From assembly GCA_021821045.1 (NCBI GenBank), contig JAKACW010000042.1, forward strand, positions 1-36,245: a stretch of 36,245 bases of DNA, in the 5' to 3' direction. Below, in pieces: positions 4,783-22,608 of the stretch; position 1 is the stretch's first letter; every line of letters starts with the position of its first letter. A program made the position numbers and the translations under genes. This DNA is from Pseudomonadota bacterium (GTDB lineage Bacteria > Pseudomonadota > Gammaproteobacteria > JAADHS01). The notes beneath the pieces are model-generated. The model was not told where the DNA came from and searched no databases. It saw only the letters and a list, made by a program, of their open reading frames with translations.

Positions 4783-7698
4783 TTAGTGCCCGCCACCGTG
4801 ACCACCCCCGCCTCCTCCGGCCGCTGGCGGCGGCGGTGGGGGTGGTGGCGGCGGAGGCGGCGGAGGCGGCGGTGGAGTGCCTCCGCCCGGTGGGCGTGGA
4901 ATGGTGCCGCCTGGCGGTGGTGGAGCCGTCCCCGGGGGCGGTGGCGGCGCGGGTGGCGCAACCGTCGCTGCGCAGTCGCCGAACTCATTGCCCCAGGTGT
5001 TGGTGAAGTGGCAAGCATTGCAGTCCAATGCCGTCGCGCAGTGACCGCCCGGCAATGCGTGACAGCTAACGCAGGACCCCAACACTTCATTGTGATCGAC
5101 GGTCGTCTCCGGCGACCAAGTCGTGGTGCTGTGGCACGCCTCACACACGTTGGTGCTGGCGATGTGGCTCGCCGACTTGCCCGTCGCGGTGGTGCCGTTG
5201 TGGCAGCTCGAGCAGCCGCTCACGATGCCCGTGTGGTCAAAGCCCGCCGGTGTCCAGGCCAGCGTGGAATGGCAGCGCTCGCACTCCAGGGTCGTCGGAA
5301 CATGGTTCGGCGTTTTGCCTGTGGCAACGATGCCGTTGTGGCAACTCGAACAGACGCCGACGACTTGACCGTGATCGACGTTGGCCGGTTGCCAGGCTGT
5401 CGTCAGATGGCAGCTCTCGCAGACGTTGGTGGTGTTGATATGGGTGGCGTTTTTGCCGGTCGCCGTGGTGCCGTTGTGACACGTCGAGCAGCCGGAAACG
5501 ATGCCGGCGTGATCGAAGCCGGCAGGCAGCCAAGCGGTCGTCAGGTGGCAGAGATTGCACTCGGACGTCGTCGGCACGTGATTGGCCGGCTTGCCCGTCG
5601 CCTGCACGCCGTTGTGACAGGTCGAACAACTGCCAAGCACCTCGGCGTGATCGACGCGAATCGTCGGCGCCCAGCCAATGGTGTTGTGGCACGCTTCGCA
5701 GACGTTGGTGCTGGAAACGTGAGTCGGCCCCTTGCCTGTCGCAGTCGTACCGTTGTGGCAACTGGCGCAGTTGCCGGTAATGCCGGTGTGATCGAACAAC
5801 GCTGGTATCCAGCCGGTGACTTGGTGACAAACGCTGCATTCCTGGGTAGTGGGCACGTGAGTGGCGGGTTTGCCGGTGGCCGCCACGTTGTTGTGGCAAC
5901 TGGAGCACACGCCCGTCACTTGAGTGTGATCGACCCGCACGGTCAGCCAGGAACTGGTGAGATGGCACGAGTCGCACAGGTTGGTCGATGCGATGTGGGT
6001 CGGATTCTTGCCCGTCGCCGTGGTCCCGTTGTGGCAACTGAAACAGGTTCCCTGCACTTGAGTGTGGTCGACGCGCACCGTCGGCATCCACGCCGTGGTG
6101 CTGTGGCAAGCCTCGCAGACGTTGGAACTGGTAATGTGTGTCGGCGTCTTGCCGGTGGCTTGGGTGCCGTTGTGACAACTTGCGCAATTTCCCGTGACGC
6201 CCGCGTGATCAAAATTGGCCGGAATCCACGCCACGGTGCTGTGGCAGGTGCTGCACTCTTGCGTCGTCGGCACGTGGGTCGGCGATTTGCCCGTTGCCGT
6301 CGTGCCGTTATGGCAAGTGGAACAGACGCCGTTGACTTGCGTGTGATCGACGCGCACGACGGGAACAAAGGCCGTAACGTTGTGGCAGGTCTCGCACACG
6401 TTACTGGTGTTGATGTGCGTCGGCGATTTGCCGGTGGCTTGCGTGCCGTTGTGACAACTGAAACAGTTGTTGGTAATGCCGGTGTGATCGAACAGCGCGG
6501 GAATCCAGCCGGTGGTGTTGTGGCAGTTGCTGCACTCCGCGGTTGTGGGAACGTGCGTCGCGGACTTGCCGCCGGCGGTCACGCCGTCATGACACCCGGA
6601 ACAAACCCCCAGCACCTGGGTATGATCCACCCTCAAGACGGGCACGAACGCCGTGGTGCTGTGGCACGCGTCGCACACGTCGCTGGTCGGCATGTGGGTG
6701 GCGGGTTTGCCGACCGCGAACAGCGACACGGATGCGCCCTCGTTGTGGCAACTGGCGCAGGTTCCAATGACGTGGTCGTGATCGACGTCGTAAGTAGGCA
6801 CCCACACATTGTTGGTATGACACGCCTCGCAAACGTTGGACGTGCGAATGTGCGACAGCGCTTTACCCGTCGCCTGCACCCCGTTGTGGCAGCTGGCGCA
6901 ACTGGCGGTCACGCTGTCATGGTCGAACTGAGCCGGAACGAAGCGGATTGTGTTGTGGCAAACATCGCAGGACGCGCTGGTCTGAATGTGGGTGGGCGAT
7001 TTGCCGACGGCGATGACGTTGTTGTGGCAACTTTCGCAACGGCCCGGTATTTCGCCGTGATCGACGGCGATAGTCGGCACCCATACCCGGTTGCTGTGGC
7101 ATGCCTCGCAGTTGTTCGTGGTCTGGATATGGGTCGTGTTTTTGCCGGTGGCATCACGGCCGTTATGGCAAGTGAAACAGGCGGCGGTGGTGTTGCTGTG
7201 ATCGAATCGCGCCGGCACCCACGCCACGGTCACGTGACATAGATCGCACGCCGCAGTAGTTGGAATATGATTGCGCGACTTGCCGGTGGCTTGCACGCCA
7301 TTGTGACAGCTGGCGCAACTCGCCATGATCGTTGAGTGATCAAAAAACCCAGAGAAACTCCACGCTAAGCCATCATGGCACAGGTCGCACTGGGCAGCGG
7401 TCGGTATGTGAGTAGCGTTCTTTCCCGAAGCAAGCGTACCGTTATGGCAATCGCGGCAAGTGTTTGGTGTGCCGATAAAATCGGACCGCTTATGACACGC
7501 ATCGCAGTTGAGCTGAGCGTGGGCGTTGGTCAGCGGAAAACCGGTACTGAAGTGATCGAACGCTTGGTCCTGAGCGGCCAAACCGGCGGTGGGCATCAGC
7601 ATTAGCAGTACGACAAGAAAACAACCGAACGCCCCGGTACATTTCCGCGCAAAAAGCGCTGCCACATCCATGGTCATAAGAGTAAGAATGCCCGCCAT
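4783..7698 (-). CDS. Giant decorated multiheme cytochrome c, 37 CxxCH motifs, poly-Pro tail
   Basis: About 971 residues from ATG 7698. A Sec signal peptide ends near PTAGLAAQ; in-frame ATGs at 7677 and 7671 are also possible, and none has a clear ribosome site. It opens with a class III-like module (FDHFSTGFPL then CDACH and CRDCH). It continues with a repeated two-heme unit of the form C.ACH.T.AW.P..FDH.G....C.SCHNG..ATGK..TH. I count 37 CxxCH. Each unit also has two further conserved histidines (in the DH and TH positions) that could be the sixth ligands. The C-terminus is a long proline run ending in GGGHGGGH, shared with the adjacent paralogue at 7926. The protein is exported and expected to carry electrons over long distance; periplasmic or surface location is not settled by sequence. 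Confidence 0.9.
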   Translation of the reverse strand: MAGILTLMTMDVAALFARKCTGAFGCFLVVLLMLMPTAGLAAQDQAFDHFSTGFPLTNAHAQLNCDACHKRSDFIGTPNTCRDCHNGTLASGKNATHIPTAAQCDLCHDGLAWSFSGFFDHSTIMASCASCHNGVQATGKSRNHIPTTAACDLCHVTVAWVPARFDHSNTTAACFTCHNGRDATGKNTTHIQTTNNCEACHSNRVWVPTIAVDHGEIPGRCESCHNNVIAVGKSPTHIQTSASCDVCHNTIRFVPAQFDHDSVTASCASCHNGVQATGKALSHIRTSNVCEACHTNNVWVPTYDVDHDHVIGTCASCHNEGASVSLFAVGKPATHMPTSDVCDACHSTTAFVPVLRVDHTQVLGVCSGCHDGVTAGGKSATHVPTTAECSNCHNTTGWIPALFDHTGITNNCFSCHNGTQATGKSPTHINTSNVCETCHNVTAFVPVVRVDHTQVNGVCSTCHNGTTATGKSPTHVPTTQECSTCHSTVAWIPANFDHAGVTGNCASCHNGTQATGKTPTHITSSNVCEACHSTTAWMPTVRVDHTQVQGTCFSCHNGTTATGKNPTHIASTNLCDSCHLTSSWLTVRVDHTQVTGVCSSCHNNVAATGKPATHVPTTQECSVCHQVTGWIPALFDHTGITGNCASCHNGTTATGKGPTHVSSTNVCEACHNTIGWAPTIRVDHAEVLGSCSTCHNGVQATGKPANHVPTTSECNLCHLTTAWLPAGFDHAGIVSGCSTCHNGTTATGKNATHINTTNVCESCHLTTAWQPANVDHGQVVGVCSSCHNGIVATGKTPNHVPTTLECERCHSTLAWTPAGFDHTGIVSGCSSCHNGTTATGKSASHIASTNVCEACHSTTTWSPETTVDHNEVLGSCVSCHALPGGHCATALDCNACHFTNTWGNEFGDCAATVAPPAPPPPPGTAPPPPGGTIPRPPGGGTPPPPPPPPPPPPPPPPPAAGGGGGGHGGGH

Positions 7699-7788
7699 AC
7701 CCCTGCCGCTTTGCCCGTTGACGAACCCGCTCGAACGCCTGCGGGAACGCTCCCGCGACGTAGCAGCAATCTTTACATTCCACGGTGG

Positions 7789-7814
7789 GGTACAAAAATC
7801 TGTATTTGTACCTA
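7789..7814 (-). promoter_or_regulatory. Perfect palindrome overlapping shared motif (copy 2)
   Basis: GGTACAAA-N8-TTTGTACC (7789-7812) is a perfect inverted repeat with 8-bp arms, typical of a dimeric regulator's operator. It overlaps a copy of TAGGTA-N9-ATTTT (7795-7814, minus strand). It lies about 95 bp upstream of the proposed cytochrome start at 7698, in the 227-bp gap between the two giant cytochrome genes. The same gap also holds a GC-rich hairpin, GCGGGA-ACGC-TCCCGC (7741-7756), which would be in the mRNA leader. Confidence 0.5.
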
Positions 7815-7925
7815 ACGAAAAATCTCGGTTATTCACGCTGTGGAATAGCGCTTAGGGAGACACCCTACCGCTGTACGAACGCGCAGATGGCAACGGCGCG
7901 TTATGCCGCAAAAGCGCGCTCCCTG

Positions 7926-10900
7926 CTAGTGCCCGCCGCCGTGACCACCACCACTGCCTCCAGCTGCCGGAGGTGGCGGAGGCGGAGGCGGTGGTGGTGG
8001 TGGCGGCGGCGGATTGGGCGGCCGCGGTATCGTGGGCGGCGGCGCCGTTCCCGGCGGAGGCGGCGGAGCCGGCGCGGGCGGCGGCGGTACGGCCGCTGCA
8101 CAGTCACCAAACTCGTTACCCCAGGTGTTGGTGAAGTGGCAGGCGTTGCAATCCAATGCAGTCGAACAGTGACCGCTCGGCAAGGCGTGACAGCTCACAC
8201 AGGATCCCAACACCTCGTTGTGGTCGACGGTTGTCTGCGGCGACCAAGTCGTCGTGCCGTGGCATGCCTCACATACATTGGTGCTGGCGATGTGGTTGGC
8301 CGACTTGCCCGTCGCGGTGGTGCCGTTGTGGCACGACGCGCAGTTGGTCGTAATGCCCGTGTGATCGAAGCCCGCCGGCGTCCAAGCAACGGTGGAATGG
8401 CAACGATCGCATTCCAACGTGGTGGGCACGTGGCCGGGTGGCTTGCCCGTCGCCGTGGTGTTGTTGTGGCAGCTCGAGCACACACCAATCACTTGCGCGT
8501 GATCCACATTGGCCGGCATCCACGCCTGCGTCAAATGGCAGCTCTCGCAGGTATTGGTCGAGTTGATGTGGTCGGCGGGCTTGCCTTGCGCCGTCGTGCC
8601 GTTGTGACAGCTGAAGCAGTTGTTCACGATGCCGGCGTGGTCAAACCCGGCCGGCGTCCAAGCAACCGTCGTATGGCAAAGGTCGCACTGAGCCGTGGTC
8701 GGAATGTGGTTGGCCGGTTTGCCGGTCGCCACGCTGCCGTTGTGACAGCTTGAACACACGCCCAACACCTGGGCGTGATCCACTTGCGCGGGTGTCCAGG
8801 ATGTCGTCAAGTGACAGACATCGCACAGCGCCGTGCTGCTGATATGGCCGGCGGTCTTCCCGGTGGCCGTCGTGCCGTTGTGGCAGGTTGCGCAACTGCC
8901 CAACACTTGGGCGTGGTCAACGCGAATCGCCGGCGACCAGGCCGTGGTGGTGTGGCAAGCTTCGCACGTATTGGTGCTGGAGATGTGTGTCGGCGACTTT
9001 CCGGTCGCCGTGGTGCCGTTGTGACAACTCAGGCAGTTGCCGGTGATTCCCGTGTGATCGAAGCCGGCCGGCAGCCAAGCGGCGGTGGTATGGCAAACAT
9101 CGCACTCTTGGGTGGTCGGCACATGGTTGGCCGGTTTGCCCAAGGCGACGGTGCCGTTATGGCAGCTTGAGCACGTACCGATTACTTGCGTGTGATCCAC
9201 TCTCAGCACCGGCACCCAAGCGGTGATGCTATGGCACGCGTCGCAAACATCGCTGGACGGGATATGAGTCGGCGGTTTGCCAACGGCAAGGATGCCTACC
9301 GCACCGCCACCGTTGTGACAGCTGATGCACGTTCCGATGACATGATCATGGTCCACCGTCACCACCGGCACGAACGCCGTGGTGCGATGGCAGGCTTCGC
9401 ACATATCCATGGTGTTGTAGTGGGTCGGCGACTTGCCGGTGGCTTGAATACCGTTATGGCAGCTCACGCAGTTCGCAACGATACCCGCATGATCGAACAC
9501 CGCGCCGACGAAGGATGCCGTGTTGTGGCAAATGTCGCAGGCTTGCGTGGTGGCAATGTGGTTCGCCGATTTGCCGGTGGCAATCACCCCGTTATGGCAA
9601 CTTTCGCAGGTGCCCGTGACCTGTGAATGATCGACCGAAATCACCGGCACGAAGGCTGTGGTGTTGTGGCACGCGTCGCACACCGTCGTCGAGGTGATAT
9701 GGGTCGGCGAACGTCCCGTCGCCGTGGTACCGTTGTGGCAGCTCGAACAAGTACCGGTGACCTGCGTGTGATCGACGGTGACCGTCGGCGCCCAGGCGGT
9801 GAAATTGTGGCAGGCCTCGCACGTCTCGGTGCTGCGGATATGCACCGCGGATTTGCCGGTCGCCTGGGTGCCGTTGTGGCAGGTCACACAGTTGCCCGTC
9901 ACGCCGGCATGGTCGAACACCGCAGTGAGCCAGGTGGCCGTCGTATGGCAGGTATCGCACTCGGCGGTCGTCGGAATGTGATTGGCGGATTTGCCGGCTG
10001 CGAGCGCGCCGTTATGGCAGCTCGAGCAAGTCCCGATGACTTGGGCGTGATCCACGCGCAACACGGGCACGAATCCCGTCGTGCTATGGCAGGTGTCGCA
10101 GGCGTCCGTGCTGGGAATATGGTTTGCCGGTTTGCCAATGGCCGCCGTGGTCACCGTTCCGCCGCCGTGGCAGCTCACACAGGTGCCGATCACGTGCGCG
10201 TGATCGACCGTGACCACCGGCACGAACGCCGTGGTGCGGTGACAGGCCTCACACATATCCATGGTGTTGTAGTGGGTTGGCGACTTGCCGGTGGCCTGAA
10301 TACCGTTATGGCAGCTCACGCAATTGGCAACGATTCCGGTGTGGTCGAACACCGCGCCGACGAAGGACGCCGTGGTGTGGCAGACGTCGCAGGGCTGAGT
10401 GGTCGCGATGTGATTCGCCGATTTGCCGGTGGCGACAACCCCGTTGTGGCAACTTTCGCAGGTGCCGCTGACTTGTGAATGATCCACGGTAATCACCGGC
10501 ACGAACGCCGTAACGTTATGACACGCGTCGCATACCGTCGTCGACGTAATATGCGTCGCCGAGCGCCCCGTCGCCGTGGTGCCGTTGTGACAGCTCGAGC
10601 AGATTCCCGTCACTTGAGTGTGATCGACCGTAATCGTCGGAACCCAGGCGGTGACGTCATGGCACGCTTCGCAGGTATTGCTGCTGCGGATGTGCACCGC
10701 GGACTTGCCGGTCGCCGTCGTGCCGTTGTGGCAGCTGGCGCAATTGCCCGTAATACCCGCGTGATCGAATATCACCCCCAACCAGGTGGCTGTGGTGTGG
10801 CAGGTATCGCACTCCGCGGTCGTCGGCACGTGGTTTGCCGATTTGCCGCCGGCCAGCGTGCCGTTGTGACATCCGGAACACGTGCCAATCACCTGGGAAT

Positions 10901-13352
10901 GATCCACCGAGGTGACGGGAACAAATCTCGCAGTCGTATGACAGGTGTCGCACACGTCCGTCGACGGAATGTGGTTGGCCGGCTTGCCGATCGCGGCCGC
11001 ACCGGTGCTGCCGCCATGGCAACTGACGCAGGTGCCGATGACATGAGCGTGATCCACTGTCACCACCGGAATCCACAAATTCGTGTTGTGGCAGGCTTCG
11101 CAGGTGTCAGTCGTGTTGTAGTGAGTCGGTGTCTTGCCCGTCGCCTGAACGCCGTTGTGGCAACTGGCGCAGTTGGCCGTAATGCCGACGTGATCGAACC
11201 GGGCCGGAAGCCATGCCGCCGTCGTGTGGCACGCATCACAGGCCTGGGTGGTCGGAACATGATTCGCGTCCTTGCCGGTCGCAATGGTGCCGTCGTGGCA
11301 GCTTTCGCATGTTCCCAACACCTGGGAGTGATCCACCGTGATGGTCGGCGCCCAAGCGATGGTGTTGTGGCAGGTGTCGCACACCGCGCTGGAGCTGATG
11401 TGGGTGGCGCTCTTGCCGGTGGCGGTGGTGCCGTTGTGGCAGCTCGAACAGACGCCCTGGACTTGGGAGTGATCGACCGCCGATGCCGGCACCCATGCCG
11501 CGACGATATGACAGGCCTCGCACGTGTTGGTGCTGCGAATGTGAACGGCAGACTTGCCCGTCGCTTGGGTGCCGTTGTGGCAGGAAACGCAATTGCCGGT
11601 GATGCCCGCGTGATCAAATATCGCCGGCAGCCATGCCGCCACGGTATGGCACACGTCGCACTCCGCGGTGGTCGGCACGTGGTTGGCCGCTTTGCCCGTG
11701 GCCTGCGTGCCGTTGTGGCAGCCCGAACAGACGCCCAGCACTTGGCTGTGGTCCACCGTCCGCGCCGGCACCCAGCCGGTGGTCAGGTGACACGCCCCGC
11801 AATCGTCGGTGGTGGGAATGTGCGTCGCCGGCTTGCCGATGGCCAACGGGTTAAACACCGGCAGCTCGTTGTGACACGTGCTGCAGGCGCCGAACACATG
11901 GTCGTGATCAACGGTGACAACCGGCACCCAGGCGTTGATCGCGTGGCACGCTTCGCAGACGTCGGTGGTGTTGTAGTGGGTAGGTGCCTTGCCGACGGCC
12001 TGCACGTTGTTGTGGCACGAGGCGCAGTTGCCGACGATCCCGCTGTGGTCGAAACCGGCGGGAATCCACGCGTTGGTGCTATGGCAGGTATCGCACTCCT
12101 GGGTGGTCGGAATATGGGCAACGGATTTGCCCGTAGCAATGATGCCGTCATGACAGCTCGAACAGGTTCCCAATACGTGCTGATGATCGACGTTGCCCGG
12201 AATCCACATCGTGGTCAGATGGCACGCCTCGCACGTATCGGTGGTACGCAGGTGATCGATCGACTTCCCCGTGGCCTGCGCGCCGTTGTGGCAGCTCGCG
12301 CAATTGCCGGTGATGCCGGCGTGATCAAACGTCGCCGGCACCCAGGCCACGGTGGTGTGACACTGATCGCACTCGGCGCTGGTCGGAATATGGCTCGGGG
12401 ATTTTCCGATAGCCTGCCGCCCGTCGTGGCAGCTCGAGCATGTGCCGCTGACTTCTTGGTGATCGACCGTAACAGCCGGCAACCACGTCACCGAGGTGTG
12501 ACACGCCTCGCACCGCGGCGTAGTACGAATATGAGTGGAGGATTGCCCCGATGCCTGCACGCCGTTGTGGCAGCGGGCGCAGTTGTCGGTGATGCCCTGG
12601 TGATCGAAGCGTGCCGGAAACCACGCATTCACCGTATGACACGTGTCGCAGGACGCGGTCGTGGGAATATGGTTGGGCGCCTTGCCCACGGCGTTGATGT
12701 TGTTGTGGCAACCCTCGCAGGAGCCGATGGCCTCCGCGTGGTCGAATCGCGTTGACGGAATCCAGCCCACGGTGTTGTGGCAAGCATCGCAGCGATTGGT
12801 CGTTGGGAGATGCCGCACGGACTTGCCGCTGGAAATGACCGAATTGTGACAACTCACGCAGGCATCTGTTGTGGTGCCGTGATCGAATTCCGCCGGCACC
12901 CACGCGATCGTCAAATGGCACAGATCGCAAGCGGCTATGGTCGGCAGATGGTTGGCCGGCTTGCCCGTGGCCTGCACGCCGTTGTGGCAAGTGGCGCACG
13001 GCGCCGTGACTGCGGCATGATCGAAAAGCGCGATAAATGAAAAACTCACCGCGCCATGACATAGGTCGCACGCGCCGCTGGTCGGAATATGGTTGGGCGA
13101 TTTGCCCACCGCCATGACGCCGTTGTGGCACTGCTGGCATTGAGTCGGTGTCCCGGCGAAATTCTCATCGCGATGACAATCGCCGCAGGGCACGGTCGCA
13201 TGGGCGTTGGTCAGCGGAAATCCGGTGCTGAAATGATCGAAGCTGTCTTTGATGTTGTGTTCGACCGCCGCGACCAGATGGGAGAAGCCAAGCAAAAGAA
13301 ATAGAACGACCCACCCGGCGAACCCGCCTACAGCCCGCGAACTGCCGGACAT
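7926..13352 (-). CDS. Giant decorated multiheme cytochrome c, 73 CxxCH motifs, poly-Pro tail
   Basis: About 1808 residues from ATG 13352; a TTG at 13424 would extend it, but the signal peptide (MSGSSRAVGG... to VAA) starts naturally at 13352. I count 73 CxxCH motifs, nearly all in the two-heme unit described for its neighbour, with matching DH and NH/TH histidines that could make every heme bis-His. A higher-order repeat of 12 hemes is visible: CEACH motifs preceded by THYNT recur as hemes 19, 31, 43 and 55. The following heme in each case has an insertion before its GKP. The C-terminus is Pro-rich and ends GGGHGGGH. No lipobox is present, so it is soluble or held by its tail. The family is decorated or doubled-CXXCH cytochromes; the role in extracellular or trans-envelope electron transfer is inferred. 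Confidence 0.92.
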   Translation of the reverse strand: MSGSSRAVGGFAGWVVLFLLLGFSHLVAAVEHNIKDSFDHFSTGFPLTNAHATVPCGDCHRDENFAGTPTQCQQCHNGVMAVGKSPNHIPTSGACDLCHGAVSFSFIALFDHAAVTAPCATCHNGVQATGKPANHLPTIAACDLCHLTIAWVPAEFDHGTTTDACVSCHNSVISSGKSVRHLPTTNRCDACHNTVGWIPSTRFDHAEAIGSCEGCHNNINAVGKAPNHIPTTASCDTCHTVNAWFPARFDHQGITDNCARCHNGVQASGQSSTHIRTTPRCEACHTSVTWLPAVTVDHQEVSGTCSSCHDGRQAIGKSPSHIPTSAECDQCHTTVAWVPATFDHAGITGNCASCHNGAQATGKSIDHLRTTDTCEACHLTTMWIPGNVDHQHVLGTCSSCHDGIIATGKSVAHIPTTQECDTCHSTNAWIPAGFDHSGIVGNCASCHNNVQAVGKAPTHYNTTDVCEACHAINAWVPVVTVDHDHVFGACSTCHNELPVFNPLAIGKPATHIPTTDDCGACHLTTGWVPARTVDHSQVLGVCSGCHNGTQATGKAANHVPTTAECDVCHTVAAWLPAIFDHAGITGNCVSCHNGTQATGKSAVHIRSTNTCEACHIVAAWVPASAVDHSQVQGVCSSCHNGTTATGKSATHISSSAVCDTCHNTIAWAPTITVDHSQVLGTCESCHDGTIATGKDANHVPTTQACDACHTTAAWLPARFDHVGITANCASCHNGVQATGKTPTHYNTTDTCEACHNTNLWIPVVTVDHAHVIGTCVSCHGGSTGAAAIGKPANHIPSTDVCDTCHTTARFVPVTSVDHSQVIGTCSGCHNGTLAGGKSANHVPTTAECDTCHTTATWLGVIFDHAGITGNCASCHNGTTATGKSAVHIRSSNTCEACHDVTAWVPTITVDHTQVTGICSSCHNGTTATGRSATHITSTTVCDACHNVTAFVPVITVDHSQVSGTCESCHNGVVATGKSANHIATTQPCDVCHTTASFVGAVFDHTGIVANCVSCHNGIQATGKSPTHYNTMDMCEACHRTTAFVPVVTVDHAHVIGTCVSCHGGGTVTTAAIGKPANHIPSTDACDTCHSTTGFVPVLRVDHAQVIGTCSSCHNGALAAGKSANHIPTTAECDTCHTTATWLTAVFDHAGVTGNCVTCHNGTQATGKSAVHIRSTETCEACHNFTAWAPTVTVDHTQVTGTCSSCHNGTTATGRSPTHITSTTVCDACHNTTAFVPVISVDHSQVTGTCESCHNGVIATGKSANHIATTQACDICHNTASFVGAVFDHAGIVANCVSCHNGIQATGKSPTHYNTMDMCEACHRTTAFVPVVTVDHDHVIGTCISCHNGGGAVGILAVGKPPTHIPSSDVCDACHSITAWVPVLRVDHTQVIGTCSSCHNGTVALGKPANHVPTTQECDVCHTTAAWLPAGFDHTGITGNCLSCHNGTTATGKSPTHISSTNTCEACHTTTAWSPAIRVDHAQVLGSCATCHNGTTATGKTAGHISSTALCDVCHLTTSWTPAQVDHAQVLGVCSSCHNGSVATGKPANHIPTTAQCDLCHTTVAWTPAGFDHAGIVNNCFSCHNGTTAQGKPADHINSTNTCESCHLTQAWMPANVDHAQVIGVCSSCHNNTTATGKPPGHVPTTLECDRCHSTVAWTPAGFDHTGITTNCASCHNGTTATGKSANHIASTNVCEACHGTTTWSPQTTVDHNEVLGSCVSCHALPSGHCSTALDCNACHFTNTWGNEFGDCAAAVPPPPAPAPPPPPGTAPPPTIPRPPNPPPPPPPPPPPPPPPAAGGSGGGHGGGH
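9414..11969 (-). repeat. Higher-order coding repeat: three ~850-bp, 12-heme units
   Basis: The reverse-strand codons for the HYN motif fall at 9414, 10266, 11115 and 11970, giving periods of 852, 849 and 855 bp, all multiples of three. Each period spans 12 CxxCH motifs. The heme immediately after each HYN-CEACH heme carries a variable insertion (for example NELPVFNPLAIGK, GGSTGAAAIGK). This points to tandem amplification of a 12-heme block inside the gene, followed by divergence. Confidence 0.8.
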
Positions 13353-13726
13353 CGGCTCGTTGCCAAGCGCGCGGCGTCGCTTCGCAGGACGCTCAAGACG
13401 CAATGAAGTCCACTTTCGCAGCAAGGACTACCCCGACTTTCGATGGTTGAGTCATTTCCGCGCGCCCCCCTCGAACTGCCCCTCGCGACGCCATTAACGT
13501 TACGCGCTGTGAAATTGCCAAAAAATTCGGTTCGTTACCTAGACCATTGCGGGGGAATGGAGTAGTCCATGTCTATTTAATACGAGGATGAAACGCCGCT
13601 AAGGGTGAACGACGAAACCGCTGGCCAACATGTCGTGGCGCGGAGTGGCTTCACGCCGCGCGTGCAACGTGACCCGAGCGGTGTCGCAATATAAAATGCC
13701 GACGGATATCTGGAGACCTGCTCCCT
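13353..13726. other. Divergent intergenic region
   Basis: 374 bp between the divergently transcribed 73-heme cytochrome and L,D-transpeptidase genes. It should contain promoters for both. I see a copy of the shared TAGGTA motif (13522-13541) but no clear sigma70 boxes and no small gene. Confidence 0.5.
13522..13541 (-). promoter_or_regulatory. Shared motif TAGGTA-N9-ATTTT (copy 3)
   Basis: On the minus strand TAGGTA, nine bases, ATTTT, 170 bp upstream of the 73-heme cytochrome start at 13352. The fixed parts and spacing equal those of the copies at 4711 and 7795; the inner bases differ more. It could instead serve the divergent L,D-transpeptidase gene. Confidence 0.4.
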
Positions 13727-15379
13727 TTGAAGGTATTGTTGCTTTGCGCAGCCCTGCTCTTGTCGAGCACCGCGGGAGTGGCTACGCCGAAGGCCGTCGA
13801 CCCCGTCTTGCTTGCAGATATTAAGGATGAGATTGTCGATAGACTGACGGGTCCGCGCGCCCATGAGACGCCCGCCCAGCCTCACCGGACGTTTCGCGCC
13901 TTGGCGTCGATGGCGATCTTCTATCAGCGACGGGACTACACCCCGCTGTGGCACACTGCTGATGGCCAACTTACTGACGCCGCGCTCAGCTTCATTGACC
14001 ATCTCCCCGACGTGGTCAGCGACGGCCTTGTTCCCGACGACTATCACGTCGCGGGCATTAAAGCCCTCTCTTCATCCAGGTGGCCCTCGGCCGGCCTCAT
14101 CGCTCAGCGCGAACTCCTGCTATCCGACGGATTTCTCCTGCTCGCCTTACACTTGCGCGACGGGCGTGTGAAACAGGATACGTTCGAACCACGGTTGCGC
14201 ATCAGCGGCGTTGCGCCAAACCTGCTGCGCCTGCTCGATGAGGCGGTGCAGTACGAGCGCGTCGTCCAAACCCTGGACGCGCTGCGTCCCGCTCTGGAAG
14301 GCTATTGGCTGTTGCGGCGAGCGCTGCCGCAGTACTACGCCGTCGAGGCCGTCGGTGGTTGGCCCGCGCTCGATATCGACTTCAGTTTGCGGGAAGGAGA
14401 TGAGGGACCGGCGGTTACTCGATTGCGTCAACGGTTGGCGGCCGAACCCGGCCTCGGGGTCGCGGTGGAGGAGTCCTCCACGGTCTTCGACTCGAACCTG
14501 GCGCGTATCGTAAAAAGTTTTCAATCGCATCACGGATTGGCCCGCGATGGCGTGGTCGGTCCCGCAACGCGCGCCGTGCTCAACGTCCCCGCTCATGCGC
14601 GCATTCGCCAAATCGAGGCCAACCTCGAACGTTGGCGCTGGCTGCCGCAAGATCTCGGATCGCGTTTCGTGGTGGTCAATATCGCTAACTACAGCTTGAC
14701 CGCCCATGTCGATCATGAAGTCGTGCTCACCATGAAAGTCGTGGTGGGCAAACCCTATCGGCGCACGCCGGTGTTCATCGATGAGATCGAGCACCTTGTG
14801 CTCAACCCATCGTGGGAAGTGCCCAATACGATCCTCTACGAGGACATCATTCCGGGGTTGCGCAGAGATCCTGGCATGCTCGCACGGCAGAACTTTCGCT
14901 TGTTTGGCACCACCAACGGCGAATTGCGGGAGGTCGATCCGTCCACAGTCAACTGGTCCGCGGTGCTTGCGCCCGGCCGCCCCTTTCCCTTCCGGCTGCG
15001 CCAACTCCCCGGCGCGACCAATCCGCTGGGCAAAATGAAATTCATGTTTCCGAATAAGTACGACGTCTATCTTCACGATACGCCGGCGCGGGAATTGTTC
15101 AAACGGCGGGTGCGCGATTTCAGCTCCGGCTGCATACGGGTTGAAAACCCCACCGAACTCGCCTTGTTCCTGCTCGACGGCGATGCGCGATGGACCCCCG
15201 AGACGTTGCAGGCCGCCGTCGAAATGGAAAAGGAACGCTATGTGCCACTGGCGCAGACCGTACCGATCTACATTCAGTATTTCACGGTCTGGAACGGGCG
15301 CGACAATGTGATGCAGTTTCGCGAAGACATCTACGGCCGCGACGACGCTCTGGCCGAAGCCTTGGCGCTGCGATCCTAG
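13727..15379 (+). CDS. ldtD: L,D-transpeptidase, YcbB/LdtD type
   Basis: 550 residues, close to the ~600 of E. coli YcbB. A signal peptide (1-19, ending GVA) is followed by an N-terminal scaffold domain. A peptidoglycan-binding domain comes next (about 210-290; FQSHHGLARDGVVGPATR), and then a YkuD catalytic domain. The active-site signature is present: H450 in YLHDTP and C469 in FSSGCIRV. Such enzymes form 3-3 cross-links between meso-diaminopimelate residues in the periplasm. The start is TTG at 13727, with GGAG 11 nt upstream; no in-frame ATG fits better. It is divergent from the 73-heme cytochrome and converges on a MepK-like endopeptidase 13 nt away. E. coli likewise has ycbB next to ycbK. 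Confidence 0.93.
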   Translation: MKVLLLCAALLLSSTAGVATPKAVDPVLLADIKDEIVDRLTGPRAHETPAQPHRTFRALASMAIFYQRRDYTPLWHTADGQLTDAALSFIDHLPDVVSDGLVPDDYHVAGIKALSSSRWPSAGLIAQRELLLSDGFLLLALHLRDGRVKQDTFEPRLRISGVAPNLLRLLDEAVQYERVVQTLDALRPALEGYWLLRRALPQYYAVEAVGGWPALDIDFSLREGDEGPAVTRLRQRLAAEPGLGVAVEESSTVFDSNLARIVKSFQSHHGLARDGVVGPATRAVLNVPAHARIRQIEANLERWRWLPQDLGSRFVVVNIANYSLTAHVDHEVVLTMKVVVGKPYRRTPVFIDEIEHLVLNPSWEVPNTILYEDIIPGLRRDPGMLARQNFRLFGTTNGELREVDPSTVNWSAVLAPGRPFPFRLRQLPGATNPLGKMKFMFPNKYDVYLHDTPARELFKRRVRDFSSGCIRVENPTELALFLLDGDARWTPETLQAAVEMEKERYVPLAQTVPIYIQYFTVWNGRDNVMQFREDIYGRDDALAEALALRS

Positions 15380-15392
15380 GAAACGAGAACAA

Positions 15393-15953
15393 TCATCCGC
15401 GCCAGCGGCGGACGCGACCGATATCGAGATGTACGAAATTGGACTTCGCGTAGTAGCCCACTCCGCCCGCTTGCATTGCCAGCGCGGCATCGTAGACCTG
15501 ATCCAATGGCCGGTTCGGCACACGAATGTCGATGGCGCGGCCTTCCATGTGGAAGCTCTTTTTCGCTACGCCGCCGCCCTTCTGGCGCAGAGCCGCGTTG
15601 GTTTTGGGGCTGCGATACCCCGAGATGATCATGAAAGGCTTGCCGCCGATGTCGAGCCGTTGCTGCAAGCGCCATAACGCATCCAACAGCTTGGGATCGA
15701 TGGGATGGACGTCACCGCTGCGATGATCGCGCAGAACGCGGTCGATGGCAGCCCGCTCGTCGGCGATGTAAACGCCCTTCTCCCAATACGTCGCCAGGAC
15801 CTTCTCGCCGGTGTGCAGGTTGTGCAGTCGCAAATGTCGTGCACCTTCTTCCGGCCTGGCCAGCGCGCTCGGCGCAGCCAATGCGAGGCCAAGGCAACCG
15901 CAGGCGCGCAGGAATGCGCGTCGGGATGAGTCGGGATGGAGCTGCTTTTTCAT
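15393..15953 (-). CDS. mepK: YcbK/MepK-like murein endopeptidase (DUF882, peptidase M15-like)
   Basis: 186 residues. A Tat-type signal is visible (SRRAFLR, then a hydrophobic stretch ending SALA). The catalytic domain shows SGYRSPKTN, SFHMEGRAIDIR and FVHLDIGRVRRW, which hold the His/Asp/His zinc ligands of LAS-type peptidases. E. coli MepK cleaves the 3-3 cross-links made by L,D-transpeptidases, which fits its position tail-to-tail with the LdtD-like gene. The start is ATG 15953, chosen because GGAGG lies 4 nt upstream; an ATG at 15974 is less likely. The substrate is assigned by family and context. Confidence 0.9.
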   Translation of the reverse strand: MKKQLHPDSSRRAFLRACGCLGLALAAPSALARPEEGARHLRLHNLHTGEKVLATYWEKGVYIADERAAIDRVLRDHRSGDVHPIDPKLLDALWRLQQRLDIGGKPFMIISGYRSPKTNAALRQKGGGVAKKSFHMEGRAIDIRVPNRPLDQVYDAALAMQAGGVGYYAKSNFVHLDIGRVRRWRG

Positions 15954-16070: not shown

Positions 16071-16125
16071 CGAATTTGTTCACAAATTCGGCTTTGAGAC
16101 ATACACAGCCGCGGTATATTCCGCG
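16071..16125. promoter_or_regulatory. Two small palindromes between MepK-like gene and 33-heme cytochrome gene
   Basis: CGAATTTG-TTCA-CAAATTCG (16071-16090) and CGCGG-TATATT-CCGCG (16110-16125) are perfect inverted repeats. They lie just past the cytochrome stop codon at 16141 and upstream of the MepK-like gene. Neither is followed by a T tract, so they may be a weak terminator region or an operator for the downstream gene; the sequence does not decide. Confidence 0.35.
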
Positions 16126-16140
16126 AGCACAGACAGGGCT

Positions 16141-18735
16141 TTAGTCCCAGTTGGCATCACGCGCGCGATGCTGGGCGTTGCGTTGGCGCGCGATGGTGGT
16201 GAGCGTCGTATCAGTGTACACATGGCAAGGCCCCGAACAGTCCTTGAGTTCCGCCACGGTATAGTCGGTGGCAGGCGTTTGCGTCTTGTCGTGCGGACCG
16301 GCGCGGTAATCATTGGCATGACAGCCGGCGCAGTCCGGTTTATATGCCGCCGTCGTCCACGTCGCAACCTCGGTGTTGTTGGTATGGCAGTCTCGGCAAG
16401 TCACGCCAGGATTGTGATCGCCCGGAAACGCGGCCGAGTTGTGGACGAACGGTACTAACGGCGTCCAGCCATTGAAGGTATGGCAATCCCGGCAGTCTTG
16501 CGTGGTCACGAAGTGGCCGGGCGTTTTACCGCTGGCGATCGACCCGTTATGGCAGCTGTCGCAACGCGCGTTGCCGATTTGGCTGTGGTCGAACTGGGTC
16601 GGCACCCACGCCATTGTGCTATGGCAGATGTCGCATTCCTGGGCCGTGACAATGTGGTTCGCGCTCTTGCCGGTGGCGGTGGTGCCGTTGTGGCAACTGC
16701 TGCAGGTGCCAAGCACATCGGCGTGATCGACGTTCGCCGGCATCCAAGCGCTGGTCAAATGGCAGTTTTCGCAACGATTCGATGTATTGAGATGCGCCGG
16801 ATTCTTGCCGGTGGCTTGCACGCCGTTGTGGCAGCTGACGCAATTGTTTGTGATCCCCGCATGGTCGAACCCGGCCGGCGTCCACGCCGCGGTGGAGTGA
16901 CACACGTCGCACTCCGCCGTCGTAGCAACGTGGGTCGGTCCTTTGCCGGTGGCGATGGTGCCGTTGTGGCAGCTGCTGCATGTTCCGAGAACTTGACCGT
17001 GGTCGACGTTGGCCGGCACCCATACCGTCACCAGATGGCACGCCTCGCAGACGCTGGTGGTCGTGATGTGGGCGGGGTTCTTTCCGGTGGCCGTCGTGCC
17101 GTTGTGGCAGCTCGCACAATTATTGGTGATGGTGTCGTGATTGAAGTTGGCTGGTGTCCAGGCCACCGCGCTATGACACAAATCGCACTCGCCGTTGGTC
17201 GCGATATGGGTCGGACCCTTGCCGCTGGCCGTCGTGCCGTTGTGGCAACTGGAACACGCTCCGAGCACCTGCTGATGATCGACGGCCATCACCGGCACCC
17301 AGGCGATGGTCGCGTGGCAGGCGTCGCATTGATTGGTTGTCGTGAGGTGTGTCGGCCCTTTGCCGGTGGCGATCACGCCATCGTGACAGCTCGCGCAGCT
17401 GCCGCGCACCTGGTTGTGGTCCACCGCGACGGTGGGCGTCCAGACGGTGGTGTTGTGACAACTCTCGCATAGATCGGACGACTGAATGTGGGTCGGCGTC
17501 TTGCCGGTGGCCTGCACGCCGTTGTGACAGGTAGCGCAAGCAGCGGTGATCCCCGCATGGTCGAAGATCGTCGGCGTCCAAGCGGTGGTGGTATGACACG
17601 TATCGCACTGTGCCGTGGTCGGAATATGGTTCGCGTCCTTGCCGGTGGCGGTGGTGCCGTTGTGACAGCCATCGCATACGCCGATGACCTGGGTATGATC
17701 GACGGCGATGGTCGGCGTCCACACTGTCGTGTTGTGGCAGCTCTCGCACAGATTCGAGGTCGGAATGTGGGTCGGCGTCTTGCCGGTGGCTTGCACGCCG
17801 TTGTGACACGTCGCGCAGCCGGACGTGATGTTGTCATGGCTGAATGCCGCCGGCGTCCAAGCGGTCGTGTTGTGGCAAACGTCGCAGGCCGCGGTCGTAA
17901 CCACGTGAGCCGGCCCCTTGCCGGTCGCCAACACGCCATTGTGACAGCTCTCGCACGAACCGATCACTTCGCCGTGATCGACGTCGATGGTCGGAACCCA
18001 GCGAACGCTGTTGTGGCAAGCGTCGCAGGCATTGGTTGTTCGAATATGGCCGGGCGGCTTGCCCTCCGCCGTGGTTCCATTGTGACAGCCCACGCACGCG
18101 CCGACGACCTGACTGTGGTCAACGGCAATCACCGGCACCCAGGCGGTGTTGCGATGGCACGCCTCGCAGGCGTCGCTGGTGCGAATGTGGTTGATGGATT
18201 TGCCCGTCGACAAAATACCGTTGTGGCACCCGGCGCACGGTCCGAGGCCTTGGGTGTGGTCCATCATCGCCGGCGTCCAGGCGGCGGTCAGGTGACAGGC
18301 ATCGCAGGCGTTGGTGGAAGGAATGTGGCTGGCGGTTTTGCCCGAGGCCTGCACCCCATTGTGGCAAGTAGCGCAGGGACCGGTGACGGTGCTGTGATCG
18401 AAAAGCTGCGCGCCCATGGACCAGCCGACACTGGTGCTGCCATGACAAATATCGCACTCGGCGCTGGTGACAATGTGATTAGCCGGCTTGCCGGGCGCCA
18501 TGACGCCGTTATGACAGGCTCGGCAACTGTTCGGGGTGCCGGTGAACATCCCCCGCACGTGACACGATTCACAAGCCACGGTGGCATGGGCCCCGGTGAG
18601 CGGAAAACCGGTGTCAAAGTGATCGAAAGCTGGCTTCGAATCGGTTTGAGCGTGACCAAGGGTCGTCATCAACAGCGCGACAAAAAACACAAATAGTCGC
18701 GCGGGCGACAATCCCGGCCGCTTGGCATAATTCAC
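16141..18735 (-). CDS. Giant decorated multiheme cytochrome c, 33 CxxCH plus one CX3CH
   Basis: 864 residues with a Sec signal peptide ending GHAQ. The start is GTG at 18735, with AAGG 9 nt upstream; no ATG is in frame before the signal. It begins with FDHFDTGFPL-CESCH-CRACH, then the two-heme unit repeats (C.ACH...W.P...DH....C.SCHNG..ATGK...H). I count 33 CxxCH. The C-terminal ~130 residues differ from the poly-Pro cytochromes: FPGDHNPGVTCRDCH, CAGCHANDY, then CSGPCH, a CX3CH that may be an unusual heme site, and a basic tail (QRNAQHRARD). It is a close tandem paralogue of 18919-20814. A periplasmic or exported electron carrier role follows from the family; partners are unknown. Confidence 0.9.
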   Translation of the reverse strand: MNYAKRPGLSPARLFVFFVALLMTTLGHAQTDSKPAFDHFDTGFPLTGAHATVACESCHVRGMFTGTPNSCRACHNGVMAPGKPANHIVTSAECDICHGSTSVGWSMGAQLFDHSTVTGPCATCHNGVQASGKTASHIPSTNACDACHLTAAWTPAMMDHTQGLGPCAGCHNGILSTGKSINHIRTSDACEACHRNTAWVPVIAVDHSQVVGACVGCHNGTTAEGKPPGHIRTTNACDACHNSVRWVPTIDVDHGEVIGSCESCHNGVLATGKGPAHVVTTAACDVCHNTTAWTPAAFSHDNITSGCATCHNGVQATGKTPTHIPTSNLCESCHNTTVWTPTIAVDHTQVIGVCDGCHNGTTATGKDANHIPTTAQCDTCHTTTAWTPTIFDHAGITAACATCHNGVQATGKTPTHIQSSDLCESCHNTTVWTPTVAVDHNQVRGSCASCHDGVIATGKGPTHLTTTNQCDACHATIAWVPVMAVDHQQVLGACSSCHNGTTASGKGPTHIATNGECDLCHSAVAWTPANFNHDTITNNCASCHNGTTATGKNPAHITTTSVCEACHLVTVWVPANVDHGQVLGTCSSCHNGTIATGKGPTHVATTAECDVCHSTAAWTPAGFDHAGITNNCVSCHNGVQATGKNPAHLNTSNRCENCHLTSAWMPANVDHADVLGTCSSCHNGTTATGKSANHIVTAQECDICHSTMAWVPTQFDHSQIGNARCDSCHNGSIASGKTPGHFVTTQDCRDCHTFNGWTPLVPFVHNSAAFPGDHNPGVTCRDCHTNNTEVATWTTAAYKPDCAGCHANDYRAGPHDKTQTPATDYTVAELKDCSGPCHVYTDTTLTTIARQRNAQHRARDANWD

Positions 18736-18881
18736 GTTGGAAAGCCTTCTTCACCCGATCGCCCCTGGGGCAATCACGCGCTGGTTATTTTCGTTTCTCG
18801 GCGCACCCCTATGGATCGGCGCCGTTTCCTTAGATGCGCCTCGTACTTTACCGGATGTGATGTGGCGGAGATATTAGGAGG

Positions 18882-18900
18882 TTTCCCTAAAACCGGGAAA
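18882..18900 (-). terminator. Possible terminator hairpin after the 23-heme cytochrome
   Basis: TTTCCC-N7-GGGAAA forms a 6-bp stem about 18 nt beyond the stop codon at 18919 on the minus strand. No clear T tract follows, so termination is uncertain; it could be an attenuating or mRNA-protecting hairpin between the two paralogous cytochrome genes, which are 183 bp apart. Confidence 0.3.
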
Positions 18901-18918
18901 AACCACCGCAAAAGCCGC

Positions 18919-20814
18919 CTACCAATCGCCATCCCGCGCCCGGTGTTCCGCGTTACGCTGCCGTGCGATGGTCGTAAGTGTGGCGTCCGTGTAGGTGTGA
19001 CAAGGTCCGGCACAGTCGCGCAGTTCAGCCACGGTGTAGTTTGTCGCCGGGGTCTGCGTCTTGCGGTGCTCCCCGGGATCGTAATCGTTGGCGTGACAAC
19101 CGGCGCAATCGGGCCTGTAGGCCGCTGATGTCCAAGTCGCCGCCTCGGTGTTGCCGGTATGGCAGTCACGGCAGGTTACACCCGGATTGTGGTCGCCCGG
19201 ATAGGTCGCCGAGGTGTGCACGAACGGGGCCAGAGGCGTCCAGCCGGTGGTACGGTGGCACGCGTCGCAATCCTGCGTAGTAACAAAGTGATTGGCGGGT
19301 TTGCCGCTGGCTTGTATGCCGTTATGACAAGAATCGCAGCGGGCGTTGCCGATCTGGCTGTGGTCGAACTGCGTCGGCACCCAGGCCGCCGTGCTATGGC
19401 AGAAGTCGCACTCCTGGGTGCTGGGAATGTGGTTCGGCCCCTTGCCCTCGGCGAGAACGTTGTTGTGGCAGCTGCTGCATACCCCTTGCACCTGGGTGTG
19501 ATCGACAGTGGAAGGCACCCAGGCTGTCGTCAAGTGGCAGTTTTCGCACAGGTTCGAACTGAGAATGTGATTCGGGTTCTTGCCCGTGGCATTGGTGCCG
19601 TTGTGGCAAGAGAAACAGTTGTTGGTGATGCCGTCGTGGTTGAATGCCGTGACGATGTCCCAGGCTTGGGTGACGTGGCAGGCGTCACATTCGGCGTTGG
19701 TCAACGGGTGATTCGGCGTCTTGCCCGATGCGATGACCCCGTTGTGGCAACTGGAGCAGGTTCCGAGCACCTGATCGTGATCCACCCGAATGACTGGATC
19801 GAACGCGCTGGTGGCATGACACGTCTCGCACCGATCCGTGGAACGAATATGGGTGGCGGGCTTGCCTTGCGCGGAGCCGCCCTGCACATGGCAGCTCACG
19901 CAGTTGTCCACGATACCGGTGTGGTCGAACGAGGATGCCGGCACCCAAGCCACCGTGCTATGGCACACGTCGCACTCCGACTGTGTGGGCACGTGGTTGG
20001 CAGTCTTTCCCGTGGCATCGCGACCGTTGTGACACGTGGAGCACGTTCCGATGACTTGATCGTGATCGACCCGGATGACCGGCCTAAACGCGACCGTGGT
20101 GTGGCAGGTTTCGCACAATGCCGTGGACCGAATATGCTGAATGTGCTTTCCGGTAGCCTGCACGCCGTTGTGACATCTGGAGCAGCCGTCGACGATGCCG
20201 GTGTGGTCGAAGCCGGCCGGCAGCCAGGCGATGGTCGAATGGCAGGCGTCGCATTCTTGGGTCGTCGCGACGTGCCCGGCGTTCTTTCCGGTGGAGATCA
20301 CACCATTGTGGCAACTGGAGCAGCGGCCCAGCACTTGCGAATGATCCACGCTGGCCGGGCTCCACAGGTTGGTGATGTGGCAGTCCTCGCACACGTTGGT
20401 GCTGTTGATATGTCGGGGAGATTTGCCGGTCGCCTGCACGCCGTTGTGACAGCTCACGCAACTGCCCGTGACCGTCGCATGATCGAAGGTGCCGGCGGTG
20501 AGCCAGGTTCGGCTGTTGGTGTCGTGACAGATATCGCACGACGCCGTGGTCACGATGTGGTTGGCCGGCTTGCCGTTGGCGATCACGCCGTTGTGACAAC
20601 CCGCGCAGGTCTTGGGCGTTCCCCTGAACACGCCGCGCACATGGCATGATTCGCACGCCACATTGGCATGGGCGCCGTCCAAAGGAAAGCCGGTGGAAAG
20701 GTGATCGAACGGCGCCGGATCGTCGGTCTGGGCAACCGCGGTAACGGCAAAGCACATCAGCGCGGCAAAAAAAACGCGCACGATGGCATTGGTGGCGGAC
20801 GTTAACGCGTTCAT
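18919..20814 (-). CDS. Decorated multiheme cytochrome c, 23 CxxCH plus one CX3CH
   Basis: 631 residues, ATG at 20814, signal peptide ending AVAQ. It has the same plan as the adjacent 864-residue paralogue: an opening FDHLSTGFPL-CESCH-CAGCH module, about ten two-heme units, and the same C-terminal domain (FVH..A.YPGDHNPGVTCRDCH, CAGCHANDY, CAGPCH). I count 23 CxxCH and one CX3CH. It is about five two-heme units shorter than its paralogue, while both ends are conserved, so the number of internal units has changed by expansion or loss. It is expected to be exported; the function is long-range electron transfer by family. It lies 213 bp downstream of the four-gene membrane operon on the same strand. 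Confidence 0.9.
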   Translation of the reverse strand: MNALTSATNAIVRVFFAALMCFAVTAVAQTDDPAPFDHLSTGFPLDGAHANVACESCHVRGVFRGTPKTCAGCHNGVIANGKPANHIVTTASCDICHDTNSRTWLTAGTFDHATVTGSCVSCHNGVQATGKSPRHINSTNVCEDCHITNLWSPASVDHSQVLGRCSSCHNGVISTGKNAGHVATTQECDACHSTIAWLPAGFDHTGIVDGCSRCHNGVQATGKHIQHIRSTALCETCHTTVAFRPVIRVDHDQVIGTCSTCHNGRDATGKTANHVPTQSECDVCHSTVAWVPASSFDHTGIVDNCVSCHVQGGSAQGKPATHIRSTDRCETCHATSAFDPVIRVDHDQVLGTCSSCHNGVIASGKTPNHPLTNAECDACHVTQAWDIVTAFNHDGITNNCFSCHNGTNATGKNPNHILSSNLCENCHLTTAWVPSTVDHTQVQGVCSSCHNNVLAEGKGPNHIPSTQECDFCHSTAAWVPTQFDHSQIGNARCDSCHNGIQASGKPANHFVTTQDCDACHRTTGWTPLAPFVHTSATYPGDHNPGVTCRDCHTGNTEAATWTSAAYRPDCAGCHANDYDPGEHRKTQTPATNYTVAELRDCAGPCHTYTDATLTTIARQRNAEHRARDGDW

Positions 20815-20914
20815 CTTTACCCAGGCGTGTTGTTAGTTGATTCTGGTTTGGATCTGCGCTGCGCTTCGCTTCGGCGCATCGACGGCTGATAACGTCCCTT
20901 TACAAAAACCGTCG

Positions 20915-20965
20915 AAAAAACTGTCGCCTAGTTTATAGGCTGGTGGAAGGCTTATCAAAAGCCTT
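20915..20965 (-). terminator. Hairpin pair after the 21-heme cytochrome operon
   Basis: AAGGCTT-N5-AAGCCTT (20947-20965) and GCCTA-GTTTA-TAGGC (20926-20940) follow the stop codon at 21028. On the minus strand the second hairpin is followed after 5 nt by six T residues (20920-20915). Together they may end the four-gene operon transcript, at least in part. Confidence 0.4.
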
Positions 20966-21027
20966 TTCTTACGGATTTGTGAGCGGATATACGTATTATC
21001 CCTTGCCCGTACCTCGACAGTCCTCCG

Positions 21028-22608
21028 CTACTTTTGCCAGCGGGGGCGGAAGTCCTTAAAGGACTCCGTATTGTGGCAACGGTTGCACAGCCGGCCATAA
21101 CTGCCATGGTGCGCGTCATCCTTCTCGTGACAGCTGAAGCAATCCATGGGAAGTTCCAAGTCATCCTTCACCGCGCTCTTGTGGCAGCGCTCGCAGTGAA
21201 TCTTCTTGTGGGTTCCCTCCAATTTGAAATCAGTGTCCTTGTCGTGATCGAACTCCCACAGTTTCCAATCCACGCTGTTGTGGCACAGTGAGCACTCCTC
21301 GCCCATCCGCTGCTTGTGCACGTCGTCCGGCTTGTGGCAGCCGATGCACTTGATGCCGGCATCCTTGAACGACGTGGTGGTGTGACACTCCTCGCAGGCC
21401 ACCGTGGCATGGGAGCCGAGCAACGGAAACCGGGTTAGATCATGGTCGAAGTCGACTTGCTTGATCCATCCGTCTTCACTGTGGCACTTGCCGCAATCCT
21501 TGCCCTCCTGGCCGTCATGGACGTCGTCCTGGCGGTGACAGTCGTAACACTTTTCCGGTGCGTCGTCTTCGTATAGATCTCCCGGATGGCAGTCGGTGCA
21601 CGCGACTTTCTTGTGTTTGCCCTTGAGCGGCCACTCGGTGTCCTTATCATGATCGAAAACGATTTCGGGCCAGCCTTTGGCGGTGTGGCAATCCTCGCAC
21701 TTCTTGCCATACTGACCCTTGTGCTCGTCCTTGAATTTGTGGCACGAGTAACAATCCTTCTTGAGGTCTTCCTTATAGATGTCCTCACCGGTGTGACATT
21801 GACCGCAGGTCACCAGTTTGTGCTGCCCCTCCAGCTTGTACTCGGTGTCCTTGTCGTGGTCGAACTTGACCTGATGCCAGCCCTGCTCGACATGGCAGTC
21901 CTCGCACTTCTGGCCGTATACGCCCTTGTGCTTGTCGTCGAGCTTGTGGCATACGGCGCACTTGGTCGGGATGCCCTTGTAGCGCTCGTTAACGTGGCAG
22001 TGGCCGCAACTGACCCCGACATGTTTGCCCTTCAAATCAAACTCGGTCTTTGAGTGATCGAACACAAATACGGGCCAACTCACCTCGTTATGGCAAATCT
22101 CGCACTTTTTGCCCAACTTGCCCTTGTGCGGTTCGTCCTTCTCGTGGCATTCGACGCACTTGCCGGGCGCTTCGCGGTATTTTTTCTTCGGCTTGTGGCA
22201 GCTCTCGCACTTCACCCGGGTGTGGCTGTCACGCAATTTGAAGTCGGTCTGGTCGTGGTCGAAAGTCGCTTGATCTAACAACACAATATTGAAGTCGCGG
22301 CCCTTGTGGTCCGTATGGCACACCTTGCACGGACGCGTGTCGACGTTGGTCAAACGACCGTGGAACCCTTCTTTCTTTTGGATATCGGCGCGCACTTCCT
22401 TGTGGCAGTCGAGGCACTTATCGTTTTGCTTCTCGCGCTGGAACCGGACGTGGCATTTCTCGCAGTCGTTTTCGTATTTGGCGTGCCCCTCTATGACCGG
22501 CCCGGGCATCATGGCCCGTTCGAAGGCGCTCAAGGGCGATTGCGCCAACGCCACGCCGCCCGCGAACGCAAGCAGCCAACCCAAGACAATGCGAAAGGCC
22601 CAACTCAT
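21028..22608 (-). CDS. 21-heme cytochrome c, class III-type repeats
   Basis: 526 residues from ATG 22608, chosen because a clean signal peptide (MSWAFRIVLG... ending ALAQ) begins there and it lies 8 nt after the b-type cytochrome gene. I count 21 CxxCH motifs. The repeat is a tri-heme module, FDHDKDTEF.L.G.H....C..CH.......P..C..CH..DD.H.G..G..C..CH...W, repeated about six times. The sequence is rich in Lys and Asp/Glu, unlike the Thr/Ser/Asn-rich giant cytochromes, so the surface chemistry differs. It is the last gene of a four-gene operon with a membrane b-type cytochrome and a flavin/Fe-S protein. It probably accepts or donates electrons at the periplasmic side of that module. Confidence 0.93.
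   Translation of the reverse strand: MSWAFRIVLGWLLAFAGGVALAQSPLSAFERAMMPGPVIEGHAKYENDCEKCHVRFQREKQNDKCLDCHKEVRADIQKKEGFHGRLTNVDTRPCKVCHTDHKGRDFNIVLLDQATFDHDQTDFKLRDSHTRVKCESCHKPKKKYREAPGKCVECHEKDEPHKGKLGKKCEICHNEVSWPVFVFDHSKTEFDLKGKHVGVSCGHCHVNERYKGIPTKCAVCHKLDDKHKGVYGQKCEDCHVEQGWHQVKFDHDKDTEYKLEGQHKLVTCGQCHTGEDIYKEDLKKDCYSCHKFKDEHKGQYGKKCEDCHTAKGWPEIVFDHDKDTEWPLKGKHKKVACTDCHPGDLYEDDAPEKCYDCHRQDDVHDGQEGKDCGKCHSEDGWIKQVDFDHDLTRFPLLGSHATVACEECHTTTSFKDAGIKCIGCHKPDDVHKQRMGEECSLCHNSVDWKLWEFDHDKDTDFKLEGTHKKIHCERCHKSAVKDDLELPMDCFSCHEKDDAHHGSYGRLCNRCHNTESFKDFRPRWQK

Follow-up and report, generated by a model that had tools for sequence, protein, structure and literature searches.

A PCC3-type gene cluster with four giant surface-type cytochromes, probably an expanded electron conduit, in a gammaproteobacterial genome

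The window, by which we mean the whole stretch of 36,245 nucleotides analysed here (contig JAKACW010000042.1 of assembly GCA_021821045.1), carries five multiheme cytochrome (MHC) genes on its minus strand, together with genes for an outer-membrane protein, an inner-membrane protein (IMP) and an FeS-FAD oxidoreductase. The features of the locus are the following.

970..4266, minus strand: outer-membrane protein with an N-terminal domain, a TPR/proline-rich region and a C-terminal barrel; putative PCC3 porin from AlphaFold2, Foldseek and its neighbours in relatives
4783..7836, minus strand: 37-heme surface-type MHC with a poly-Pro and GGGGGGHGGGH tail; likely start ATG 7698
7926..13424, minus strand: 73-heme surface-type MHC with a 12-heme super-repeat and a poly-Pro/Gly-His tail; likely start ATG 13352
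13727..15379, plus strand: L,D-transpeptidase (YkuD, PG_binding_1; Pfam PF03734, PF20142, PF01471)
16141..18735, minus strand: 33-heme surface-type MHC with the canonical C-terminal cap (33 CXXCH and 1 CX3CH)
18919..20814, minus strand: 23-heme surface-type MHC with the canonical C-terminal cap (23 CXXCH and 1 CX3CH)
21028..22608, minus strand: 21-heme periplasmic MHC of seven triheme modules; open frame to 22713, likely ATG 22608
22617..23546, minus strand: IMP with two predicted b hemes (WX3HX13H twice, SGXXG)
23568..24893, minus strand: membrane-anchored FeS-FAD pyridine-nucleotide oxidoreductase (Pfam Pyr_redox_3, Fer4; N-terminal hydrophobic segment)
24900..27752, minus strand: Sel1 and ankyrin-repeat protein with a signal-like N-terminus (Pfam Sel1, Ank)

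The starts at ATG 7698 and ATG 13352 were read from the sequence, and both lie inside the listed open reading frames (ORFs). In order of transcription, the genes encode the ankyrin/Sel1 protein, the FeS-FAD protein, the IMP, the 21-, 23- and 33-heme cytochromes and then, past the oppositely oriented transpeptidase gene, the 73-heme cytochrome, the 37-heme cytochrome and the porin. The first four genes are separated by gaps of 6, 21 and 8 bases, and because they almost abut, they probably form a single operon. Spacing is looser downstream of the 21-heme gene, where the transpeptidase gene, which probably lies outside the electron system, interrupts the cytochrome array. A minus-strand ORF at 14147-15523 was considered and rejected, as the real gene there is that of the plus-strand transpeptidase. 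Promoter-like sites showed no excess over chance, and terminator-like sites were fewer than chance. Beside the electron-transfer locus, at window positions 31504-33353, lie genes for a beta-carbonic anhydrase and a PF03601 membrane protein.

The original prediction had counted, by hand, 37, 73, 33, 23 and 21 CXXCH motifs and two CX3CH motifs in the five cytochrome genes. Six-frame translation returned exactly these numbers: 187 CXXCH motifs (37+73+33+23+21), and beyond them one CX3CH in the 33-heme and one in the 23-heme protein. All other open frames of the window longer than 150 aa contain no CXXCH, the five genes are GC-rich at codon position 3 like the other genes, and histidines outside the motifs exceed the motifs in every protein (82 to 73, 40 to 37, 37 to 33, 27 to 23 and 28 to 21); together these observations exclude a chance origin of the motifs. 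There would thus be enough non-motif histidines for bis-His ligation in all five cytochromes. The residue-to-heme ratio is low (25-27), and signal peptides were assessed by eye. Each CX3CH is located in the C-terminal cap, and because it is retained in 31 of 31 relatives with the cap, it is probably a genuine heme site, which would make 189 in all. We considered whether 73 hemes might be a record and rejected the idea: the S-layer MHC of Ca. Methanoperedens manganireducens, the published record in 2020, has 113 (PMC7082337), and a PCC3-type giant in another locus (L202:6022-18234, G213:C17) has 133 CXXCH in a single ORF of 4071 aa. This last ORF directly follows genes for a 24-heme periplasmic MHC and an IMP-sized protein.

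The 21-heme protein has a three-heme period, corresponding to seven triheme modules. Across 47 sequences, its 21 CXXCH motifs and exactly 21 other histidines are invariant, and this one-to-one match suggests that every heme is bis-His ligated. Its sequence weakly matches the Geobacter dodecaheme wire of the GSU1996 type (PDB 3ov0; E 0.0013), and its structural model has no match among solved structures.

How electrons could cross the outer membrane is a point on which the original prediction was only partly right. It had held that the window lacks an MtrB-like porin gene, and indeed neither the window nor the rest of the genome contains a match to MtrB_PioB (PF11854). However, the protein encoded at 970-4266, the TPR-barrel protein of the original prediction, appears itself to be a porin. 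In the AlphaFold2 model, its C-terminal part (residues 652-1097) forms a 22-strand beta barrel with pLDDT mostly above 90, Foldseek matches this barrel to porins (E 8e-11), the last residue is Phe, and homologues adjoin a giant MHC gene in relatives. On this modelling evidence we take it to be the porin-type barrel of PCC3, which corrects the reading of the giant-cytochrome locus as porin-less. Membership of the Mtr/Mto group was rejected, as there is no PF11854 match and no protein in the genome reaches the curated DmsE/MtrA cut-off (the best window protein scores 148 bits against 192). The prediction of a dedicated multiheme system for electron transfer, distinct from MtrA/MtrB/MtrC, is borne out.

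The idea that the layout has no described counterpart did not hold, as the gene set matches that of PCC3. As defined by He et al. in 2017 (PMC5566968), PCC3 has four parts: a porin, an extracellular MHC of giant size, an MHC in the periplasm with a median of 21 hemes, and an IMP whose signature is two WX3HX13H motifs and SGXXG; in published examples the periplasmic MHC has 21-24 hemes and the extracellular one 10-85 (PMC5566968, PMC10734462). An IMP of this type is expected to be about 300 aa long and to have five transmembrane helices. The IMP in the window, of 309 aa, carries WX3HX13H at residues 97 and 279 with SGXXG between them, and this pattern recurs in 60 of 60 IMP homologues. The gene that begins 8 bases past it encodes a periplasmic MHC with 21 CXXCH motifs and is conserved in relatives. 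Four further proteins are built of two-heme repeats as expected of the giant MHC, with a predicted extracellular location, and the barrel protein supplies the porin. The order FeS-FAD, IMP, 21-heme MHC, giant MHC, porin is conserved in relatives and recurs in dozens of loci; organisms with the cluster include Gallionella, Sideroxydans, Thiobacillus, Thiodiazotropha and tubeworm symbionts. Our alignments cover homologues and fetched loci, with the S. lithotrophicus ES-1 reference clusters standing outside them. The original prediction had named, as the finding that would count against it, a match to a described porin-cytochrome system that shares the gene order; this is largely what we found, with the exception of the four surface-type cytochromes. 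Records named Nitrospira, outside the Proteobacteria, also contain PCC3-like periplasmic MHCs of 24 or 30 hemes (L096, L102, L110, L113 and L115).

The number of giants sets this locus apart. Sixty-eight loci have the periplasmic MHC, the porin and one or more uncut giants; 63 of them have one giant and five have two, and even with cut genes counted, none of the 129 fetched loci has three. Some of these 129 are the same place taken from two collections, the ORF caller was simple, and genes farther out than the flanks of about 10 kb may have been missed; despite these limits, a cluster like that in the window would still have displayed three giants. The largest heme total in the complete clusters examined was 113, compared with 187 here. 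The repeat unit of all four giants is two hemes long (about 47 residues), and there are higher-order periods in addition; in the 73-heme protein there is a 12-heme super-repeat, with 81% DNA identity across the complete unit, and four-heme blocks are up to 94% identical in protein sequence. In a tree of the N-terminal regions, the four grouped together with an orphan 51-heme gene from another contig (C136) with modest support (86/70), the 33-, 37- and 73-heme proteins together at 99/89, and the 37- and 73-heme proteins at 100/98. This joint grouping indicates that the four giants were most likely born by duplication within the lineage. The canonical cap is present in the 23- and 33-heme proteins. 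In its place, the 37- and 73-heme proteins have a terminal segment that looks, by eye, like those of L042, L043 and L046, and beyond it poly-Pro and GGGHGGGH; among the other giants of loci L024-L118, a pattern search detected this tail in none.

PCC3 is widespread: of the 369 gammaproteobacterial genomes sampled, 41 have a strong IMP match. Homologues of the FeS-FAD protein (E ≤ 1e-60) are encoded in 40 of these 41 and in two of the 328 others, a co-occurrence with a Fisher p of 5e-50 whose independence is overstated by the shared ancestry of the genomes. Five genomes with two IMPs also hold two FeS-FAD genes. The main text of the two PCC3 papers searched makes no mention of the FeS-FAD component or of the ankyrin protein as parts of PCC3; the Sel1/ankyrin protein is present in 28 of 45 judged PCC3 loci. 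The second cluster motif of the FeS-FAD protein is CX2HX2CX3C, with His replacing the second Cys, in all 55 pattern-fitting homologues, and several other homologues have CXGSXXC in the first motif too. Because the IMP motif resembles the membrane domain of ferric reductases and NOX (PMC5566968), the FeS-FAD protein may link the IMP to NAD(P)H, and its near-perfect co-occurrence with PCC3 suggests that the inner terminus of PCC3 is NAD(P)H-linked, beyond the published model.

The genome (4.5 Mb, 98% complete) holds more of this machinery. Another contig carries a second PCC3 cluster, whose giant has 41 hemes, and there are orphan PCC3-type giants of 51 (L169, C136), 35 (L170, C91) and 14+10 hemes (L171, C19), with no IMP or porin gene near them in the stretches examined. 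The two clusters and the orphans amount to at least 338 PCC3-type CXXCH motifs. A Uet-like locus in the same genome (L175, G000:C14:40000-57000) encodes an 11-heme cytochrome, three triheme c7 proteins, a tetraheme protein, a peptidylprolyl isomerase, an NHL-like protein and an unassigned ORF of 606 aa; both members of its family have the undecaheme protein at 75-77% identity. The genome also encodes a heme-copper oxidase and gives four RuBisCO large-subunit matches, of which one is a fragment. These genes suggest that the host is a lithoautotroph, one that seems heavily committed to exchanging electrons outside the cell, and we slightly favour uptake of electrons from outside over release.

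Our main reading, to which we assign a probability of roughly 80%, is that the locus encodes an expanded PCC3 conduit made up of the IMP/FeS-FAD pair, a 21-heme wire, the barrel and four duplicated giant surface cytochromes, and that this conduit probably lets the cell trade electrons with external material. The IMP and, on the cytoplasmic side, the FeS-FAD protein would exchange electrons with the 21-heme cytochrome, which would span the periplasm as a wire and pass electrons through the barrel to the giant surface cytochromes; these would carry them to an external partner or bring them in from it. The four wires (23, 33, 73 and 37 hemes) arising from lineage-specific duplication could be interchangeable or stacked. 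Docking to the porin seems likelier for the two giants with the canonical cap than for those with the tail, which may serve as extensions. Of all this, the analysis establishes gene content and order, motifs, the modelled barrel fold, duplication and co-occurrence, while the surface location, the route of the electrons and the docking roles are deductions.

Several points weigh against this conduit reading: the array is split by the transpeptidase gene, one porin faces four surface MHCs in a stoichiometry that is unexplained, and in Sideroxydans ES-1 both PCC3 clusters were down on Fe(II) (PMC8788666). In strain CL21, PCC3 genes were expressed above the mean (PMC12442390). The ES-1 result, a lack of induction by Fe(II), would fit giants that act chiefly as an electron capacitor or a heme/iron store, a capacitor role having been suggested before (PMC10734462), and a cell-surface unit with hundreds of hemes would have room for charge. 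We nonetheless consider storage improbable, as the porin, the IMP and the 21-heme protein that spans the periplasm are conserved and make up a full envelope path that storage would not need. Less probable still is an assembly artefact that joined two PCC3 clusters or misplaced repeats, even though the genome is a draft of 140 contigs, the genes are repetitive and the transpeptidase gene sits inside the array. The super-repeats of the 73-heme gene are only 76-81% identical in DNA with no identical run longer than 26 bases, which makes an artefact in this gene unlikely; moreover, IMP, 21-heme and porin genes each occur once in the window, with the second set on another contig, and the four MHCs cluster together in the tree.

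He et al. proposed that PCC3 is quinone-linked, which the likeness of the IMP to quinone-active di-heme cytochrome b supports (PMC5566968); the FeS-FAD protein would then be an unrelated or regulatory neighbour. We regard this as a serious contender at somewhat below even odds, given that FeS-FAD and IMP genes co-occur almost perfectly and match in copy number. The broader proposal that PCC3 is an NAD(P)H-linked circuit of the NOX kind across the envelope, with the FeS-FAD protein as its inner end and here driving exchangeable giant wires that include a tailed class absent from the other loci examined, is tentative and, taken whole, rather unlikely. Even so, the near-obligate FeS-FAD partner provides a concrete handle on how PCC3 connects to metabolism, and a lineage with multiplied surface-type cytochromes offers a natural experiment on the role of such wires.

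Compared with known systems, MtrCAB, MtoAB and PioAB would be analogous in using a porin and multiheme cytochromes as a conduit across the outer membrane, but this genome has no homologue of their MtrB/PioB porin and no DmsE/MtrA decaheme protein above the cut-off. The GSU1996-type wire of Geobacter resembles the 21-heme protein in its row of c7-type triheme modules, but has twelve hemes and no porin or IMP partner. The cytochrome of Ca. Methanoperedens manganireducens shares an extreme heme count in a secreted protein, but is an archaeal S-layer fusion, with 113 hemes against 73 here. The closest system is PCC3 (PMC5566968; Gallionellaceae survey, PMC10734462), which has the same IMP motif, 21-heme MHC, giant low-complexity MHC, large porin and gene order. 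However, the other clusters examined have one or two giants and this one has four, two of them with a poly-Pro/Gly-His tail in place of the canonical cap; a transpeptidase gene is inserted here, and the FeS-FAD and ankyrin partners fall outside the published definition.
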